A stretch of DNA of 64,000 nucleotides from Anaerolineae bacterium (GTDB lineage Bacteria; Chloroflexota; Anaerolineae; Aggregatilineales; Phototrophicaceae), in NCBI GenBank assembly GCA_016789005.1, contig JAEURA010000057.1, forward strand, positions 62,001 through 126,000. The letters run 5' to 3'. Shown here in pieces: positions 41,804 to 51,318 of this stretch. The notes beneath the pieces were generated by a model. That model was given only the letters and a program-made list of their open reading frames with translations. It ran no database searches and had not been told where the DNA came from. Within the stretch, counting starts at the first letter, position 1, and every line of letters begins with the position of its first letter. Position numbers and translations under genes: made by a program.

Positions 41804-44800
41804 TCAAAGGCGATGGTGTACCTGCAGGCTGCGAACGCGGAGCGGCTTGGTACGCAGCGCCTTGATCCCCTGCACCGCCGCCATTGCCGCGCTGAGCGTC
41901 GTGATGATGGGTACATTGTAGAGCGCTGCTGCACCGCGAATCTGGGCGCCATCGTGATGCGCCTGAGCGCCGCGCGGGGTATTGATGACCAGATCGATCT
42001 CCCCGGCGCGAATTGCGTCCACAGCATTTGGTGAACCCTCGCTCACCTTCTGGATAGTCGTCGCGGGAATATCCAATGTGCGCAGGAAGGCTGCCGTGCC
42101 CTGAGTCGCGATCAACGCGAAACCGAGCTGATGCAGGTCGCGGGCGATCTTGACGGCTGCGCCCTTGTCATTATTGTTGACGCTGATGAAGACCGTCCCC
42201 CGCTGTGGAAGCGCCGTATTTGCCGCAATTTCTGCCTTGGCAAAAGCGTGCCCAAAACTGGAAGCATGCCCCATCACTTCTCCCGTAGAACGCATCTCTG
42301 GACCGAGACCGGCATCGACACCAGGGAATTTCTGAAACGGCAACACCGCTTCCTTGACGAAGAAACCGTCGACGCGCGGCTCTTCCAGAAAGCCAATCTC
42401 GACCAGGCTCTTGCCTGCGGCGATTGCTGCGGCGTGTCGCGCCAGGGGAATTCCTGTCGCCTTGCTCACGAACGGGACGGTGCGGCTGGCGCGTGGGTTG
42501 ACTTCCAGAACATAGACGACTTCGTCCTTGATGGCAAACTGGATGTTGAACAGCCCTCGAACCCCCAGCGCCTTACCGATTCGTTCGGTGTACTCGCGAA
42601 TGATCTCTACGTGATAGTAGCTGACCTTGTATGGCGGCAGCACACACGCTGAATCGCCGCTGTGGATGCCGGCTTCTTCGATATGCTGCATGATCCCGCC
42701 GATAACGACCCGTTCGCCATCGCAGAGCGCATCAACGTCGATCTCGAAGGCATCATCCAGGAACTGATCGATCAGGACGGGATGCCCCAGTGATTCAGAA
42801 TGCTTTTCCAGCCAGTCAGCGAGCATTGCACGGTCAAAGACGATTGCCATGTCACGTCCGCCGAGGACGTAGCTGGGGCGAACCAGCACGGGATAGCCGA
42901 TGGATTCGGCAGCCGCCAGCGCCTCGTCCGCCGTCACGGCAATGGCGCCAGAAGGCTGGGGAATGTCGAGCTGCTGCATCAGCATGTGGAAGCGCTGGCG
43001 GTCCTCTGCCAGATCAATCGTTTCCACCGAAGTACCCCAGATCGTTGCACCACCCTCTGCCAGAGCGCGCGCAATGTTGAGCGGGGTCTGACCGCCGAAC
43101 TGCACCAACACGCCGTCCGGCTTCTCGCGGTCGATGATATTCAGCACATCCTCGGTGGTGATCGGCTCAAAGTAGAGACGGTCGGCGGTGTCGTAGTCGG
43201 TGCTGACGGTCTCCGGGTTGCAGTTGATCATGATCGTCTCGAAACCAAGATCGCGCAGCGCGAAGCAGGCGTGAACGCAGCAGTAGTCGAATTCGATCCC
43301 CTGCCCGATGCGATTTGGACCGCCGCCGAGGATCACGACCTTCCGGCGTTCATCGGGCGCACTTTCGTCTTCCGCTTCATAGGTCGAATAGAGATAGGGC
43401 GTGAACGCCTCGAATTCCGCCGCGCAGGTATCGACGCGATAGAAGCTGGGTTCAACGCTCAACGATTGGCGGTAAGCGCGGACCGCATCTTCTCGCTCGC
43501 CGAGCAGGCGCGCCAGGTGCGCGTCGCCAAAGCCGGCGCGTTTCAGGGACCACAGCGACTCGGCGGTAAGGTCGCTCAGATGCAGCCCCTCAGGGACAAG
43601 CGCCCGCCGCGCCGTGATGATGTCGCCCAGCTGGCGAACAAACCAGGCATCAAACCCGGTCGTTTCGACGATGTGGTCCAGAGGCGTGCCGTCGCTCAGT
43701 GCCGAAGCGACCTGGAACAGGCGCTGTGCGGTCGGCAGTTTGAGCGATTCTGGAGTCACCAGCATCGCCTTCGCGCCGAAACCGATCATCCCGATGTCCA
43801 GCGAGCGGATCGCCTTTTGCAGCGCCTCTGGAAACGTTCGCCCAATCGCCATCACTTCGCCGATGGCTTTCATCTGCGGACCGAGCGTGCGATCAGCGCC
43901 GGGGAACTTATCAAAATCCCAGCGAGGGATCTTCACGACCACGTAGTCTAACGAAGGTTCGAACGACGCGGGCGTCACACGGGTGATGTCGTTAGGAATT
44001 TCGTCAAGTCGATACCCAACCGCCAGCAGCGCGGCGATCTTGGCAATAGGAAAGCCGGTCGCCTTGCTCGCCAGCGCCGACGAACGCGAGACACGCGGGT
44101 TCATCTCGATGACGTAGACCTGCCCATCCGCCGGGTTGACGGCGAACTGGACGTTCGCGCCTCCCGTCGCCAGACCGATGCGGTCGAGCACCTTTCGCGC
44201 GGCGTTGCGCAGCCGTTGCAGTTCCTTGTCGGTGAGGGTTTGCGCCGGCGCGACAGTGATGCTGTCTCCCGTATGTACCCCCATCGGATCCAGATTTTCG
44301 ATGGTGCAGACGACGACGAAATTACCACTGGCGTCACGCATGACTTCGAGTTCGTATTCCTTCCAGCCCAGGACGCTGCGCTCGATCAGGACCTCGTGGA
44401 CCGGGCTGAGCTTGAGACCTCGTTCGGCAATTGCAGCGAGTTCTTCAGGGCTGTACGCGATGCCGCCGCCCGATCCACCAAGAGTGAACGAGGGACGAAC
44501 CAGCACCGGGTAGCCGATCCGGTCGGCGGCGTGCAGCGCTCCCTCGATGGTCCCGACGACCTCGCTTTCCGGGCATTGCAAGCCGATTTCCATCATGGCA
44601 TCTTTGAACAATTGCCGATCCTCGGCAAGCTGGATGCTGTCCAGCTTCGCGCCGATCAGCTCGACATTGTGCCTGGCGAGGACACCGCTCTCCGCCAGGG
44701 TCATCGCCAGATTGAGGGCGGTCTGCCCGCCAACGGTCGGAAGCAGGACATCCGGCTTTTCCGCCTCGATGACTCGCTCGACGATTTCCGGCGAGAGCGG

Positions 44801-45001
44801 CTCAACGTAAGTGGCGTCGGCGAATTCCGGGTCGGTCATGATCGTCGCAGGGTTGCTGTTGATCAGCACGACGCGGTAGCCCTGCGCCCGCAGAACTTTG
44901 CACGCCTGGACGCCGCTGTAGTCAAATTCACAGCCCTGCCCGATAATGATGGGACCGGAGCCGATGATCAGGATGGACTTGATGTCTGTGCGTTTTGGCA
45001 T
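41804..45001 (-). CDS. carB: Carbamoyl-phosphate synthase large subunit
   Basis: The 1065-residue ATP-grasp enzyme joins ammonia (from CarA), bicarbonate and two ATP into carbamoyl phosphate for arginine and pyrimidines. Two homologous halves start [20 protein letters not shown] and [20 protein letters not shown], each with an ATP-grasp domain ([33 protein letters not shown]). The allosteric MGS-like domain is at the C-terminus (about 930-1065). It is the last gene of the arginine operon, 3 bp after carA. Confidence 0.97.
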
Positions 45002-45004
45002 CGT

Positions 45005-46159
45005 CTAGATCGCTGCTTTGCTGCCGTCCTGGACGCGCCGGACGAACTCGTCGAACAGGTAAAGAGAATCATGCGGACCAGGCGACGCTTCCGGGTGGTA
45101 CTGCACGCTGAACGCGCCCAGATCGACGTGGCGAAGCCCTTCGATGGTGTTGTCATTCAGGTTGATGTGAGTCACTTCTGCGCCGCGCAAATCGCTGTCC
45201 GGCGTGACGGCAAAGCCGTGATTGTGTGCGCTGATCTCGACGACGCCGGTGAGAAGATTCTTGACCGGTTGGTTGCCCCCCCGATGTCCAAAGCGCATCT
45301 TCGCCGTCCTGCCGCCGAGTGCCAGCGCCAGGATTTGATGTCCCAGGCAAATCCCGAAGATCGGTGTCTTGCCCAACAAACCTCGCACGTTGTCGATCAT
45401 ATGGGTCACAGCAGCCGGATCGCCCGGACCATTGCTCAGGAAGACCCCCGCCGGGTGCATCCCCAGGACTTCCTGAGAGGTCGTCCGCGCTGGAATGACG
45501 GTCACACGCAGTCCTCGGTCAGTCATCATGCGCAGGATATTGTGTTTGATCCCAGTATCATAAGCGACGATCAGCGGAGCCTGCTCATCCCGCACGCCCA
45601 CCCCGTAAAAGTCCGGATTACTGCGCTCCGACCAATGATATGCCTCTGCGCAGGTCACGTCATCAACGAGATTCCAGCCATTCATGTCCGGCGAGCTGCG
45701 CGCTAACTCGACCAGCGCAGACTCATCTATCGCCGCTTCACCATGCGCAATCGCCGCGCGCATCGCGCCTTGTTCGCGAATATGGCGCACCAGCGCCCGC
45801 GTGGCAACTTCGCTGACGCCGATCACCCCCTGATCGCGCAGATATCCGTCCAGATCGCGCTGCGCTCGCCAGCTGCTCACCACCGGTGAAAGGGCGTGCA
45901 CTACGAACCCGGCGACCCACACGCGGTCCGATTCCACATCTTCCGGGTTGATGCCGGTATTACCGACATGCGGGACGGTCATCGTCACAATCTGGCGGTG
46001 ATAGGACGGGTCAGTCAGGATCTCCTGATAGCCCGTCATCGACGTGTTGAAGACCAGCTCGCCGGTCTGTACACCTTCTGCGCCAAACCCCTCGCCGGCG
46101 AACGTCCGACCATCTTCCAGCGCAATCAATCCCGGCTTCCTGCCCGTATGCAGCGTCAC
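45005..46159 (-). CDS. carA: Carbamoyl-phosphate synthase small (glutaminase) subunit
   Basis: The protein has 384 residues, with an N-terminal CPSase domain (IALEDGRTFAGEGFG, NTSMTGYQEILTDPSY) and a class I glutamine amidotransferase domain with the nucleophile Cys in IFGICLGHQILALALGG (C271) and the His in SAHNHGFAV. GTG 46159 is chosen because TAGGAG is ideally placed 7 nt upstream. ATG 46189 would overlap argJ by 20 bp and lacks a Shine-Dalgarno. It feeds ammonia to CarB, the next gene. Confidence 0.95.
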   Translation of the reverse strand: MTLHTGRKPGLIALEDGRTFAGEGFGAEGVQTGELVFNTSMTGYQEILTDPSYHRQIVTMTVPHVGNTGINPEDVESDRVWVAGFVVHALSPVVSSWRAQRDLDGYLRDQGVIGVSEVATRALVRHIREQGAMRAAIAHGEAAIDESALVELARSSPDMNGWNLVDDVTCAEAYHWSERSNPDFYGVGVRDEQAPLIVAYDTGIKHNILRMMTDRGLRVTVIPARTTSQEVLGMHPAGVFLSNGPGDPAAVTHMIDNVRGLLGKTPIFGICLGHQILALALGGRTAKMRFGHRGGNQPVKNLLTGVVEISAHNHGFAVTPDSDLRGAEVTHINLNDNTIEGLRHVDLGAFSVQYHPEASPGPHDSLYLFDEFVRRVQDGSKAAI

Positions 46160-46169
46160 GTATCGACTC

Positions 46170-47393
46170 CTAGCTGCGGTAGTGTCCATTGATCGAGACG
46201 TAATCGTGGCTGAGGTCGCACGTCCACACGGTCGCTGCGCCGCCGCCCATACCCACGTTCAGCCGCACAATCACCGAGTCGGCTTTGACGATTTCCGTCG
46301 CCACGGCTTCATCATAGTGGGTTGGCATCGCATGGGCATAGAGCAGCAAACCTTCATCATCAGCGCCCCGCGCGAAGCGAAGCGTCGCAGCCTCTGCATC
46401 AAGCGCTACGCCGGCGCGCCCCGCCGCCGCCATGATCCGCCCCCAGTTCGCATCGCCACCATAGAATGCCGTCTTGACCAGCGGCGACGTCGCGATGGTG
46501 TTAGCGATCTGCTTCGCCGCCAAGTCGTCCTGCGCGCCGCTGACTTCGATGGCGATGAATTTGGTCGCGCCTTCTCCGTCGCGCACCACTGCCTGCGCCA
46601 GCTTCACGCTGACCGCGGTCAGCGCTTGCAGAAACGCCGCTTCGTCGGCATCACCCGCGATCACGACGCTGCTCGCGCCGTTTGCCAGCAGCAGAACCGT
46701 GTCATTCGTGCTGGTATCGCCGTCCACAACGATACGGTTGAAGCTCACCTCCACCGCCTGATGCAGGAGCCGATCCACCTGCTCGGCGCTCAGGGCGGCG
46801 TCGGTGACGATGACACTGAGCATCGTCGCCATGTTCGGCGCGATCATCCCCGCCCCCTTGGCAATGCCGGTGATGCGGTAGGCGCTGCCGTCCTCGCGCA
46901 CGACGGTCTCCGAGGCAATTTTGGGTCGGGTGTCGGTCGTCATGATTCCGTTCGCCGCCCGATTCCAGGCGGCGTCGCCAGAATCCAGCTCGCCAGAGGC
47001 AAGCGTCACCCCCTGCGCGATCTTGTCCATCGCCAGCTGCGTGCCGATCACGCCAGTGGACATCACCAGCACCGAGTCTGGCGGCACGCCAAGCGTTTCC
47101 GCCGTGAGCCGCGCCATCTCGCGGGCGTTCGCCAGCCCTTGTTCGCCGGTACAGGCGTTGGCGCAGCGCGTGTTGACGGCGACAGCGCGGATTCCCGATT
47201 GTCCCCGTGCCAGCACTTCGGCGTCATACAGCACGGGAGCTGCCTTAACCAGATTGGTTGTGAACACCCCGGCAGTGGTGCAGGGACGGTCGCTGGCGAT
47301 CAGCGTGAAATCGAGCGCACCGTTTGCTTTCAAGCCACAGGCGACGCCGGCTGTCTGAAAGCCGGCGACAGTCATGGTTGTCGAATCAGTCAT
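46170..47393 (-). CDS. argJ: Arginine biosynthesis bifunctional protein ArgJ
   Basis: The 407-residue protein transfers acetyl from N-acetylornithine to glutamate, recycling the acetyl group and often also using acetyl-CoA. It self-cleaves before the Thr in IAKGAGMIAPNMATML (T190), the autoproteolysis and nucleophile site; the common KGSGMI reads KGAGMI. AVNTRCANACTG and STGVIGTQL are further landmarks. An AAGG Shine-Dalgarno lies 7 nt before ATG 47393. It lies between argD (48 bp upstream) and carA (10 bp downstream). Confidence 0.97.
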   Translation of the reverse strand: MTDSTTMTVAGFQTAGVACGLKANGALDFTLIASDRPCTTAGVFTTNLVKAAPVLYDAEVLARGQSGIRAVAVNTRCANACTGEQGLANAREMARLTAETLGVPPDSVLVMSTGVIGTQLAMDKIAQGVTLASGELDSGDAAWNRAANGIMTTDTRPKIASETVVREDGSAYRITGIAKGAGMIAPNMATMLSVIVTDAALSAEQVDRLLHQAVEVSFNRIVVDGDTSTNDTVLLLANGASSVVIAGDADEAAFLQALTAVSVKLAQAVVRDGEGATKFIAIEVSGAQDDLAAKQIANTIATSPLVKTAFYGGDANWGRIMAAAGRAGVALDAEAATLRFARGADDEGLLLYAHAMPTHYDEAVATEIVKADSVIVRLNVGMGGGAATVWTCDLSHDYVSINGHYRS

Positions 47394-47441: not shown

Positions 47442-48638
47442 TCACAGCGCTGCCAGGATGCCGGTCAGACGTTCGACCAGCGAATCGACGTGGCTGTTCT
47501 GAACCACCAGCGGCGGCACGAAGCGAATGACGTTGGTCCCGGCGTTGACCATCAACAGCCCATGCTTGTACCCGGCTTCGATGATCGGCGCAGCTTCCAC
47601 ATGCAGTTCCATGCCAACCATCAGCCCGCGCCCGCGAATCTCCTTGATGTACGGACTGTTGATCTCTTCCAACCGCTCTTTGAGGTACTCCCCCACCGAC
47701 TGAACGTGCGTCAGAAACGCCGGCTCGGCGATGCGTTCCAGCACGTAGCGCGCCACGCTGGTGATAAACGGTCCGCCCGCGAAGGTCGAACCGTGATCGC
47801 CGGCATGGAGGTGACTGGCAATCTTCTCGGTCGCCAGAATCGCGCCGATCGGCAGCCCGCCCGCCAGCGGTTTCGCCAGCGTCATGATATCCGGCGCAAC
47901 GCCGGCATGTTCGTGCGCCCACAGCCTGCCGGTGCGTCCCACGCCGCACTGCACCTCATCGTAGACCAGCACCGCGCCGTGCTGATCGCAATGCTCGCGC
48001 AGCGCGCCGAGAAACTCGGGAGTCGCCGCGTTGATGCCACCCTCGCCCTGTACAGGCTCAATGAAGACCGCCGCCGTCTTGTCGGTGATCGCCTCGCGGG
48101 CGCTGGCGATATCGTTGAAAGCAGCAATCTTGACCCCGGAGAGCAGCGGCATGAACGGTTTCTGATATTTCTCCTTCGGGGTCATGGAGAGCGACCCCAT
48201 CGTGCGTCCGTGAAAGGCATCGCTGAAACAGACGAGTTCGTGTTTGCCAGGCTCGCCGGAGTCGTAAGCGGCGCGGCGGGCGAACTTGATCGCACCCTCG
48301 TTCGCTTCCGTCCCGCTGTTGGTGAAAAAGACCCGGTCGGCAAACGAGCGTTCCGTGAGCACCGTCGCCAGCGCCGCCTGCTGCTCGGTGTAGTACAGGT
48401 TGCTGGTGTGCAGAAGCCCTTCAGCGGCACGCTGAATAGCTGTCGTCAACCCCGGATCGCCATAGCCAAGCGCGTTGACGGCGATTCCCGCCACCCAGTC
48501 GATGTAGGCGTTCCCCTCAGCGTCGTAGAGCGTCACACCTTCGCCACGCGCCAGCACAAATGGCGGGCGCTTGTACGTCTGAACGACATGCGCGGCGTCC
48601 TGTTCCATGACCCAATTGGTGTTGATAGCTGCAATCAC
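47442..48638 (-). CDS. argD: Acetylornithine aminotransferase
   Basis: The 398-residue class III PLP aminotransferase converts N-acetylglutamate semialdehyde to N-acetylornithine. FFTNSGTEANEGAIKFAR, FHGRTMGSLSMTPKEKYQ, EPVQGEGGI, YDEVQCGVGRTG and the PLP Lys in MTLAKPLAGG (K256) are diagnostic. It starts with GTG directly after the stop of the HNH gene (TAA-GTG), with GGAG 5 nt upstream. A related ornithine/LysW-type role is less likely given the neighbours. Confidence 0.95.
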   Translation of the reverse strand: MIAAINTNWVMEQDAAHVVQTYKRPPFVLARGEGVTLYDAEGNAYIDWVAGIAVNALGYGDPGLTTAIQRAAEGLLHTSNLYYTEQQAALATVLTERSFADRVFFTNSGTEANEGAIKFARRAAYDSGEPGKHELVCFSDAFHGRTMGSLSMTPKEKYQKPFMPLLSGVKIAAFNDIASAREAITDKTAAVFIEPVQGEGGINAATPEFLGALREHCDQHGAVLVYDEVQCGVGRTGRLWAHEHAGVAPDIMTLAKPLAGGLPIGAILATEKIASHLHAGDHGSTFAGGPFITSVARYVLERIAEPAFLTHVQSVGEYLKERLEEINSPYIKEIRGRGLMVGMELHVEAAPIIEAGYKHGLLMVNAGTNVIRFVPPLVVQNSHVDSLVERLTGILAAL

Positions 48639-49283
48639 TTAGGCTCCCCCTTCTTTTGCATCCTGTATCTTCAGAAACTCCGACCAATGAAGACGTTCTT
48701 CAACCCATTCGCGGCGGTCACTTCCTGGAATGATCCAGCCATTTCCGGCTTCGTAGCGGATCGTCGCCAGGCACCACCCCAGGATCCTCACCCCGGTTTC
48801 ACGGCTGATGCGTCCGGAAAACAGGGCGTGCAGCACCAGTTTGCGCGAATACTCCGACTGCCTTACCAGCGCGTTATATATGAGATGATGTAGCTCATGA
48901 CAGTTGGCGCACAACTGGATCGTCACCTTGTTTTCGCCGTGTGTCGCAACATCCCACAGGTGATGACGCTGTGACGTTGGATAGCCGCATGCCGAACACG
49001 CCTTCAAACGCTCCTGAAACTTCGGACGACGACGCTGACGCAGCAGCTTGTAACGCTGCAAACGGTAGAAGTCGAGCCAATAACCAACGACTTCAGCACG
49101 CGCGGCATCGTCGGGCAGCGCGGAAAACGCTGTCTCGAAGGCGTCGAGCAGATCGCGCGCCACTTTCTCCCGAAAGAGCGACTGCACCAGGGCATAGAGC
49201 GCCTCTACCTGGCTGCCGAGCGCCTGGTGAGGATCGCCATCCTGAATGGGTTCCGGTTGTTGGTCGCTCATCGCCTCGTCCAT
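48639..49283 (-). CDS. HNH-like zinc-finger protein inside the arginine operon
   Basis: The 214-residue protein has a helical N-terminal half and a middle HNH-endonuclease-like module: CSACGYPTSQRHHLWD (C96, C99, H107, H108), an Asn-containing ENKVTIQLC, then CANCHELHHLIYNAL (C125, C128, H129, H132, H133). Four Cys could bind a structural zinc around the HH...N...H catalytic core. A helical C-terminal part follows. Function is unknown: a nuclease, or a nucleic-acid-binding derivative. It lies 6 bp after argB and abuts argD, so it is translated with arginine enzymes, an unexpected partner. Confidence 0.75.
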   Translation of the reverse strand: MDEAMSDQQPEPIQDGDPHQALGSQVEALYALVQSLFREKVARDLLDAFETAFSALPDDAARAEVVGYWLDFYRLQRYKLLRQRRRPKFQERLKACSACGYPTSQRHHLWDVATHGENKVTIQLCANCHELHHLIYNALVRQSEYSRKLVLHALFSGRISRETGVRILGWCLATIRYEAGNGWIIPGSDRREWVEERLHWSEFLKIQDAKEGGA

Positions 49284-49289
49284 CCGCCG

Positions 49290-50042
49290 TCACGGATGAT
49301 CTATCGCCGTGATCACAGTGCCGCCGCCATCGCGCAGCCCTTCCAGATGGGTGATCACCGCCGCCTGCACGCCGCGTCGCAATGCCTCGGTCGCGGTACG
49401 CACCTTCGGAATCATGCCGCCGAAGATCGTCTCGTTAGCGATCATCACCTCTGACTGCTCATCCGTCAGCGACGGCAGAACCTGCCCATTCAGCAGGACT
49501 CCGGGGACATTGGATAGGAAGACCAGCCGCTCCGCTTCGAGCGCCCCCGCCAGCGCGCCGGCGACGTGATCTGCATTAACGTTGAAGTTGTTCTCAACGC
49601 CGATGCAGATCGGAGCAACCACTGGAGTCAATCCGGCGCGAAGGAGCGCTTGCAGCGGTTCTGGACGTACGGCAGAAACTTCACCGGTGAACCCCATGTC
49701 CACCGGGGCATGTCTCATCTTTTCCGCGCGCACCAGGGCAAAATCGACCCCGGACAGTCCAATCGCGTCAACCCCAGTGTTCACCAGGGTGCGCACCAAC
49801 CGCTTGTTGACGGTTCCGCACAGCACCATCTCTACCAGCGCCAGCGATTCGGCATCGGTCACGCGAACGCCGTCAACGTAGCGCGGTGTGATGCCCATGC
49901 GCTCCTGAAGCTGGCTGATCTCCTTCCCGCCGCCGTGAACGATGACGACCGGTTCCGCCAGCTTCGCCACCACGCCGGCGAATTCATTCAGATATTCCTG
50001 GCTGTCCAACTCATGCCCGCTGATTTTGATGACGAGAGTCAC
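49290..50042 (-). CDS. argB: Acetylglutamate kinase
   Basis: The 250-residue amino-acid kinase phosphorylates N-acetylglutamate. It has VIKISGHELDS, VIVHGGGKEISQLQERMG, YVDGVRVTD, NFNVNADHVAGALAGAL and FLSNVPGVL. GTG 50042 overlaps the argC stop as GTGA, with AAGGG upstream; a longer frame from 50087 would read through argC. The N-terminal helix associated with arginine-inhibited hexameric NAGK is not evident, so the feedback status is unclear. That may make transcript-level control (argC leader) more important. Confidence 0.94.
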   Translation of the reverse strand: MTLVIKISGHELDSQEYLNEFAGVVAKLAEPVVIVHGGGKEISQLQERMGITPRYVDGVRVTDAESLALVEMVLCGTVNKRLVRTLVNTGVDAIGLSGVDFALVRAEKMRHAPVDMGFTGEVSAVRPEPLQALLRAGLTPVVAPICIGVENNFNVNADHVAGALAGALEAERLVFLSNVPGVLLNGQVLPSLTDEQSEVMIANETIFGGMIPKVRTATEALRRGVQAAVITHLEGLRDGGGTVITAIDHP

Positions 50043-51073
50043 AGCAGCCCTTCCGTCTCTGCAAAGCCGAACATGAGATTGAAGCACTGCACCGCCTGCC
50101 CAGATGCGCCTTTTCGCAGATTGTCGGTGACGCTGGTGATGTGCACCAGTGTCTCTGCCACCGCCGTGACGCTGATGGCGCAGCCGTTGGTCTTGACGAC
50201 ATGTTTCAACGTCGCCTGTTCCCCTTTCGGCAGCATCCTGACCAGCGGTTCACCGGCATAGGTCTCTTCGTAGAGCATCTGAATGTCCTCACTGCCGTGG
50301 TCCTCGGCAAGATGAACATAGATGCTCGCCATCAACCCCCGATCCAGCGGCAGCAGATGAGGCGTGAAGATCAGCATGCCGGCGTCGGCGTTGATCTTCT
50401 TCATCTCCTGCTCGATCTCGCCCACATGGCGATGCGAGCGCCCCACGCTATAGGGTGACAGGTTGCCATAAACTTCTACGAAATGCAGGTGGGGCTTGGG
50501 ATCGCGCCCTGCCCCGCTCACGCCGGACTTGGCATCGACAATGATCGGCGCTCCATGCTGAATCCAGTCGGCTTTGAGCAGCGGGTAGATGCCGAGCAGC
50601 GTCGTCGTCGGGTAGCATCCCGGCGCAGCGATGACCTGTGCCCCGCGGAGGCGTTCGCGGCTGAATTCAGGAAGCCCGTACGGCGTGGTTTGCAGCAGCG
50701 CCGGATGCGGATGATCATGCCCATACCACTGCTTGTAGCTCTCCGGCGTATCCAGACGCAGATCTGCCGACAGGTCGATGACGCGGATGCCGGCATCGAG
50801 CGCCTTTGCTGCCGTTCTTGCCGATACGCCGTGAGGCAGCGCCAGGAAAACTACATCGACGGTGTCGGGGTTCAGCGGCGCGTCATCGGGGCGAATGTAG
50901 TGCAAATCGGTAAACGGCACAGGCTGACCGGCATAGGTGGAAGATGTGGCAAACACGACGCGGGCGCGCGGGTGTTTTGCCAGCAGTTCAACCGCATCCT
51001 GTCCAGCATAGCCGCTCGCGCCGTAGACGCCGACGCGCACCTGATGAGAGTCTTGATCGGACATCGATGGCAC
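50039..51073 (-). CDS. argC: N-acetyl-gamma-glutamyl-phosphate reductase
   Basis: The 344-residue NADPH-dependent reductase makes N-acetylglutamate semialdehyde. An N-terminal dinucleotide fold (VRVGVYGASGYAGQDAVELL) precedes the catalytic Cys in IAAPGCYPTTTLLGIYPL (C153), with SGAGRDPK and HRHVGEIEQEM following. GTG 51073 is favoured by AAGGAG 5 nt upstream; ATG 51064 is too far from it. It is the first gene of argC-argB-HNH-argD-argJ-carA-carB and lies directly behind a leader-peptide attenuator (51097-51253). Confidence 0.96.
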   Translation of the reverse strand: MPSMSDQDSHQVRVGVYGASGYAGQDAVELLAKHPRARVVFATSSTYAGQPVPFTDLHYIRPDDAPLNPDTVDVVFLALPHGVSARTAAKALDAGIRVIDLSADLRLDTPESYKQWYGHDHPHPALLQTTPYGLPEFSRERLRGAQVIAAPGCYPTTTLLGIYPLLKADWIQHGAPIIVDAKSGVSGAGRDPKPHLHFVEVYGNLSPYSVGRSHRHVGEIEQEMKKINADAGMLIFTPHLLPLDRGLMASIYVHLAEDHGSEDIQMLYEETYAGEPLVRMLPKGEQATLKHVVKTNGCAISVTAVAETLVHITSVTDNLRKGASGQAVQCFNLMFGFAETEGLL

Positions 51074-51096: not shown

Positions 51097-51133
51097 AAAC
51101 AAAAACCCCCGCCTCGTCTGGTGAGGTCAGGGG
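51097..51133 (-). terminator. Attenuator terminator upstream of argC
   Basis: In minus-strand order, CCCC (51133-51130) and CCTC (51126-51123) pair with GAGG (51115-51112) and GGGG (51110-51107) around a 7-nt loop. TTTTTGTTT (51105-51097) follows at once. This is an intrinsic terminator inside the arg leader, ending 24 nt before the argC start, so it would stop transcription before the operon unless an alternative fold forms. Confidence 0.85.
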
Positions 51134-51197
51134 TCGGGGTTCGCTCAGGTTCAGGCAGTCGCAACCGCGCTACGCCAAAGCTCCCGGCTTGACCTCA
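51122..51197 (-). promoter_or_regulatory. Mutually exclusive antiterminator and pause-type pairings in the arg leader
   Basis: In leader codons 18-22, TGAGGTCA (51197-51190) is the perfect reverse complement of TGACCTCA (51129-51122), which is the 5' half of the terminator; their pairing would destroy the terminator. The same segment can instead fold on itself as TGACC (51204-51200), loop ACTGA, GGTCA (51194-51190), a hairpin that would leave the terminator free. These are the 1:2, 2:3 and 3:4 pairings of classic attenuation. Confidence 0.7.
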
Positions 51198-51253
51198 GTG
51201 GTCAGCGGGCGACGGCTGCGACGACGCGACGAACAAACGGTTGACGGCTGCAT
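51170..51253 (-). CDS. Candidate arginine leader peptide (27 codons, RRRSRR run)
   Basis: A 27-residue reading frame runs from ATG 51253 to TAG 51172-51170. Codons 10-15 (51226-51209) are CGT CGT CGC AGC CGT CGC, encoding Arg-Arg-Arg-Ser-Arg-Arg. The frame begins about 30 nt after the predicted transcript start and ends 40 nt before the attenuator stem. No strong Shine-Dalgarno is visible (AGGA lies 16 nt upstream), which weakens the case, but the Arg run just ahead of the alternative hairpins fits ribosome stalling under arginine limitation. Proposed as an arginine-sensing leader of the arg-car operon; translation is unproven. Confidence 0.65.
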   Translation of the reverse strand: MQPSTVCSSRRRSRRPLTTEVKPGALA

Positions 51254-51289
51254 GGGCTGAATGATCAAGTCCTGAGTACTGATAGGTTG

Positions 51290-51318
51290 ATGATACCCGC
51301 GCCCTGTCCGACTGTCAA
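51290..51318 (-). promoter_or_regulatory. Consensus promoter of the arginine operon
   Basis: On the minus strand TTGACA (51318-51313) and TATCAT (51295-51290) have an ideal 17-nt spacer. The predicted start at 51283 is 30 nt before the leader ATG and about 210 nt before argC. I see no convincing ARG box (ArgR palindrome) here. The rest of the roughly 300-nt gap up to the divergent ABC gene at 51558 shows nothing else I can support. Confidence 0.7.

Follow-up and report, generated by a model that had tools for sequence, protein, structure and literature searches.

The window, 64,000 nucleotides in all, carries an arginine operon on its minus strand in the order argC-argB-orf214-argD-argJ-carA-carB, and this gene order is kept in relatives. 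An earlier note on this DNA had described a seven-gene arg-car operon, and we indeed find seven co-directional genes, all of which except the third are recognized by curated models:

50039..51073, minus strand: argC, first structural gene (TIGR01850, 366.8 bits against a cut-off of 233.6)
49290..50087, minus strand: argB (TIGR00761)
48639..49283, minus strand: orf214, encoding a 214-aa protein with CxxC ... CANCHELHH and no curated family match
47442..48638, minus strand: argD (TIGR00707)
46170..47393, minus strand: argJ (NF003802)
45005..46189, minus strand: carA (TIGR01368)
41804..45001, minus strand: carB (NF003671)

Of 20 loci from relatives, 14 also have orf214 between argB and argD. Translation of argC starts at a GTG (51073) with AAGGAG in front, and the region upstream of this start contains the following leader features:

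51290..51318, minus strand: promoter TTGACA-17-TATCAT (TTGACA 51318-51313, 17 nt, TATCAT 51295-51290)
51170..51253, minus strand: leader ORF MQPSTVCSSRRRSRRPLTTEVKPGALA*, 27 codons, kept in relatives (stop codon 51172-51170)
51209..51226, minus strand: control codons CGT CGT CGC AGC CGT CGC (R R R S R R), codons 10-15 of the ORF
51200..51209, minus strand: segment 1 CCCGCTGACC, 5' arm of the 1:2 hairpin, directly 3' of the Arg run
51183..51197, minus strand: segment 2 TGAGGTCAAGCCGGG, partner of segment 1 or, as antiterminator, of segment 3
51122..51133, minus strand: segment 3 CCCCTGACCTCA, partner of segment 2 or of segment 4
51106..51115, minus strand: segment 4 GAGGCGGGGG, 3' arm of the terminator
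51101..51105, minus strand: U run (U5) of the intrinsic terminator, also found in relatives

Both the promoter and the 27-codon ORF with its Arg-Arg-Arg-Ser-Arg-Arg run had been pointed out in the earlier note and are present. The promoter matches 11 of 12 consensus positions and is the sole promoter-like site within 1.3 kb; it places the predicted transcription start at ~51283 on the minus strand and leaves a leader of ~30 nt before the ORF, for which an in-frame TTG at 51268-51266 offers an alternative start. The TGACC/GGTCA hairpin described earlier forms the core of a longer, imperfect hairpin of 10 bp (CCCGCTGACC/GGTCAAGCCGGG), and the 8-bp pairing of TGAGGTCA (51197-51190) with TGACCTCA (51129-51122) is exact and is extended by GGG (51185-51183) with CCC. 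The GC-rich, bulged hairpin, separated from the leader ORF by a 36-nt spacer, and its U run also stand before argC, at a distance of 27 nt from the end of the U run, not the 24 nt first reported.

In the window leader (51318-51073, minus strand), helices 1:2, 2:3 and 3:4 are mutually exclusive. Segments 3 and 4, which form the predicted intrinsic terminator, fold at -18.4 kcal/mol (RNAfold), and the complete leader is more stably folded than shuffled versions of itself (z -2.1). A simple terminator scan missed the 3:4 terminator, apparently owing to its strict stem and loop rules. When the region was put through 2000 dinucleotide shuffles, an equally dense Arg run appeared in 30 (1.5%); by itself the run is thus only mildly improbable, so the case rests on comparison, and conservation is decisive.

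Conservation and covariation of the leader in relatives

We located argC in 97 of the 98 genomes of the window's family and examined the upstream region in 86 (taxa are labeled by number, families with f and genera with g). The leader device was found in 78 of these 86 regions, adjoining argC in 74 and displaced in four. The 74 adjoining regions share a common order, with an Arg-rich ORF, a segment GAGGTC, GAGTTC or GAGATC and a terminator of the form CCCTGA[CT]CTC...U, and the ORF mostly ends 80-150 nt upstream of argC. In the four displaced cases (G003, G005, G009 and G015; L181-L184), the whole leader stands before other genes that now precede argC, 1.1-1.6 kb away. Some members of the family lack the element, namely genus g12 and the genomes G001, G055 and G013.

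Across the 74 regions, Arg makes up 64% of six codons in the ORF frame, whereas the two other frames reach 6% and 5%; at the leader's Arg codons, CGT, CGC and AGG stand in for one another. This suggests that selection acts on the encoded amino acid, beyond the nucleotides alone. CGT accounts for 43% of the Arg codons in the leaders versus 12% in the genes of the window's operon. In 67 of the 74 regions the leader ORF is preceded by a promoter of the form TTGAC-17-TAnAnT, with a spacing of 17 in nearly all. Genomes of g22 often (L053, L058, L059, L072 and others) carry in addition an inverted repeat, TGCACAA-N11-TTGTGCA(TAA), 5' of the -35 box, a candidate operator for some regulator of the leader promoter.

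The weak Shine-Dalgarno of the leader ORF, raised in the earlier note as a weak point, is real and extends to the relatives (mean -2.5 kcal/mol against the anti-Shine-Dalgarno). The start codon lies 20-40 nt past the predicted transcription start in most of them, at a fairly constant distance. Because of this constancy, the ORF is probably initiated without a strong Shine-Dalgarno, which looks like a general trait of the element and not like a defect peculiar to this leader.

We tested the 1:2 helix for covariation in 43 sequences outside the main body of genus g22. In the form CCCGC.GACC/GGTC..GC.GGG, 85.6% of its cells are paired and 30 are double-change cells; on each of five measures, all 500 shuffles fell short of the real alignment, although such shuffle-based statistics are inflated by the relatedness of the sequences. 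Sliding the partner by one column lowers pairing to about 50%. The short 5-bp form of this helix covaries weakly, whereas the longer register obtained from folding has strong support. The 2:3 helix (GAGGTCA...GGG : CCC TGACCTC) is paired in 94.2% of cells and takes a different, covarying version in g22, with a U-U mismatch in most members of that genus. When partners were swapped between genomes of the pooled set, native 1:2, 2:3 and 3:4 were each better than all 1000 permutations; within g22, 1:2 showed no excess over swapped partners (550/1000). The antiterminator 2:3 continues beyond its core, taking in the U-rich end of the ORF and A-rich sequence ahead of segment 3, and the extended helix likewise passes the partner-swap test. 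Mean energies over the 43 sequences are about -12 kcal/mol for 1:2, -16 for the 2:3 core, -27 for extended 2:3 and -21 for 3:4.

The earlier note had proposed an alignment of the relatives' argC upstream regions as a check, with the loss of both Arg codons and alternative stems as the outcome that would speak against its reading. Both are kept, with synonymous changes in the codons and compensatory changes in the base pairs. The same result bears on the possibility that the hairpin is a constitutive terminator or a filter of transcriptional noise, with no regulation and an Arg-rich ORF that is there incidentally. The frequency of equally dense runs in shuffled sequence would suit such a device, but the Arg codons and three alternative helices are maintained with compensatory changes across the class and also outside it, and argG has a leader of its own, which makes this explanation extremely unlikely.

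Proposed attenuation and its alternatives

Arginine biosynthesis is usually ascribed to a protein repressor, ArgR/AhrC, and in some Firmicutes to T-boxes. We found no ArgR (PF01316) in the window's own genome, which is 90% complete, and none over the cut-off in the 98 genomes of the family; the same search was positive in 9 of 14 control genomes. An ArgR operator was considered at the locus and dropped since ArgR is absent from the genome and, above cut-off, from the family. The T-box covariance model matched neither the window nor the arg leaders tested, while as a control it recovered trpE of the same genome at 105.5 bits (L216; G000:C177, 3043-3311, minus strand). A tRNA-binding leader at trpE and, for arginine, predicted ribosome-based leaders thus coexist in this genome. 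hisD was not found in it. Rfam has no riboswitch, T-box or other family matching at the argC leader, so arg operons here are at present probably annotated without this regulation.

Attenuators of the trp, his, leu, ilv and thr operons combine a codon run for their own pathway with 1:2, 2:3 and 3:4 helices and a terminator before the first gene. The argC leader shows the sequence hallmarks of the trp/his type: clustered Arg codons (five in six codons), mutually exclusive helices, a predicted intrinsic terminator, and a matching placement of codons and stop. A ribosome halted on the Arg run, which ends at 51209 where segment 1 starts, would mask segment 1 and leave segment 2 free; one that finishes the ORF would reach a stop codon ~10 nt beyond segment 2 and so mask segment 2. 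The masking argument draws on the known size of the ribosome footprint.

We propose that RNA polymerase starts near 51283 and that a ribosome translates the 27-codon leader. If arginyl-tRNA were short, the ribosome would stall on the Arg run with its footprint over segment 1; segment 2, left free, would pair with segment 3, the 3:4 helix could not form, and argC-argB-orf214-argD-argJ-carA-carB would be transcribed. With ample arginine, the ribosome at the stop codon would cover segment 2, 3:4 would form, and transcription would end near 51100, giving a leader RNA of ~185 nt. In the event of no translation, 1:2 and 3:4 would form and transcription would likewise end. From the sequence and its comparison we infer that the leader is translated, that the ribosome stalls, in which direction expression responds, and that all seven genes are controlled.

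The Arg run could instead act as a peptide and not through tRNA demand, as in nascent-chain arrest peptides (fungal AAP, TnaC, SpeFL) that here would sense arginine or a metabolite. Arg-rich nascent chains can slow ribosomes, and leaders of near genera have a common peptide tail, RRPxTxEVxxGFLR. This tail is, however, explained by RNA pairing, as it holds segments 1 and 2, and elsewhere it varies freely while the pairing is kept. The Arg run lies directly 5' of segment 1, a position from which a ribosome starved at these codons would cover that segment, and an Ala run stands before alaS in a matching layout (see below). We therefore consider an arrest peptide improbable.

It is also conceivable that the hairpins act on the argC ribosome binding site, through translational or Rho control as at speF or rbf, and Arg-codon leader ORFs of that kind are known (PMC6386406, PMC13009471). 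At argC, however, the 3:4 hairpin is followed by a U run that is kept in relatives, and it lies ~17 nt 5' of the AAGGAG, which is outside the hairpin; we regard this kind of control as very unlikely.

The comparison thus supports the Arg-sensing attenuator put forward in the earlier note, through the Arg codons, the stems, the second leader before argG and the lack of ArgR. We conclude that the leader very probably attenuates transcription by the ribosome-mediated route of the trp/his type, with specificity for Arg, and that these bacteria probably detect a shortage of arginine through stalled ribosomes, where a repressor protein would be usual.

Other probable target genes and lineages

A second Arg leader, found with a second model, precedes argG in the window's own genome, outside the window (G000:C209:2972-3086). 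It comprises MFILSPCLRIRRRRTQYEFGAFGVRSG*, the segments GTTCGGGG : CCCCGAAC and a terminator, followed by argG. For about 18 of the 30 nearest argG genes of the family, an ORF with an Arg run ends 40-190 nt ahead of the gene, and most argG leaders have the terminator just before argG. One genome of family f42 carries an Arg leader before argD. With leaders before argC, argG and, in that one genome, argD, the element would serve a small regulon.

Searches with the Arg model also returned alaS in genus g95 of family f42 (L205, G218:C1:1304216-1304332; L218-L220), since GCC repeats resemble CGC repeats in a shifted frame. The properly placed ORF, MLNVPFKHVNFAAAAQTASLVGIVA*, has the same layout and encodes a run of four Ala codons, the amino acid of the alaS gene itself, and the terminator is CCAGACT...AGTCTGG. 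The codon run thus tracks the downstream gene's amino acid, which serves as an unintended control of the codon logic, and the g95 leader is probably an alanine attenuator of alanyl-tRNA synthetase. Outside Anaerolineae, LysE-type exporter-like genes have GGTCTGG/CCAGACC terminators upstream (L234 in G615, L238 in G685, L239 in G775), together with Gln-rich short ORFs in one frame (AQQQQINQLLWRSG, NQQANQPWRRSG, NSQRQQPASRSG); these may be glutamine leader attenuators.

At E 0.01, the family covariance model has matches in 92 of 154 genomes from the order, a few near-threshold ones being due to chance. A search of the class, and the second model run over the phylum, yielded further leaders. Inspected matches before argC include families f3, f4, f7, f42 and f46 and, outside the class, f83 and f109. 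Arg runs in other families include PRRERRSRPT, FVRRIRRRQTNG, LRLRRPRTNEV and LRRRTRRPARKG, and the letters of the segments vary by family while complementarity is kept (CCAGACC/GGTCTGG, GAGGTTCG/CGAACCTC, AGGTTCGG:CCGAACCT, CCGGTCTGG/CCAGACCGG). Weak covariance-model matches (for example L160, L161, L186-L191, L195 and L208-L213) were set aside as chance, having no downstream arg gene or no sensible ORF. Among the argC upstream regions of the named set, those of Gammaproteobacteria, of Verrucomicrobia and of Chloroflexi outside Anaerolineae (Dehalococcoidia and others) had no consistent Arg leader.

A broader picture, to which we give roughly even chances, is that much of Chloroflexota lacks ArgR and runs its arginine regulon (argC-car, argG and in places argD) on several Arg-codon attenuators that arose separately or are diverging. 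These would belong to a wider, undescribed use of leader-peptide attenuation that includes alaS with its Ala run and LysE-type exporters with their Gln-rich ORF.

Relation to known regulatory leaders

With the trp, his, leu, ilv and thr attenuators, the argC leader shares a leader ORF with pathway codons, alternative helices and an intrinsic terminator; it differs in its amino acid, arginine, its targets, argC-carB and argG, its host phylum, Chloroflexota, and its weak leader Shine-Dalgarno. ArgR/AhrC likewise couples arg biosynthetic genes to arginine supply, but through a protein repressor. Leader-peptide systems had been shown solely in Proteobacteria and Actinobacteria before Firmicutes were added (PMC2965389).

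Arginine sensing through Arg codons in short ORFs has precedents. In Salmonella, two consecutive Arg codons of speF orf34 sense arginine through ribosome pausing (PMC6386406). Unlike the argC leader, orf34 serves polyamine synthesis, works through Rho, RNase G and exposure of a ribosome-binding site instead of an intrinsic terminator, and is unrelated in sequence and host; the leaders described here precede argC, argG or argD, not ornithine decarboxylase, and the HIRRT core of the orf34 family is absent from them. Rare Arg codons in a short uORF, rbfL, sense arginine restriction in S. aureus (PMC13009471), but there translational occlusion lowers rbf expression, the target is not biosynthetic and no terminator is involved. 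T-box leaders with arginine specificity have also been mentioned (PMC1262725); they too exert control at the RNA level by tRNA charging, with a choice between terminator and antiterminator, but bind the tRNA directly, without translation.

The earlier note had placed an Arg-specific attenuator outside the well-described ones. Searches of full-text literature, which covered few subscription journals, returned neither an attenuator for arginine biosynthetic operons nor, for Chloroflexota, any leader-peptide attenuator. While the classical trp/his mechanism is known, its use for this amino acid, this gene set and in this phylum is new to the extent of our checks, priority not being proven.

Altogether, a lineage with no detectable ArgR appears to use codon-based attenuation, for a new amino acid and in a phylum for which our searches gave no earlier account of it. 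With two targets in one genome, the leaders form a large natural set of covarying attenuators in which one may follow how attenuators arise, move and change letters yet retain their logic, and which is also suited to the question of how leaders operate without a strong Shine-Dalgarno.
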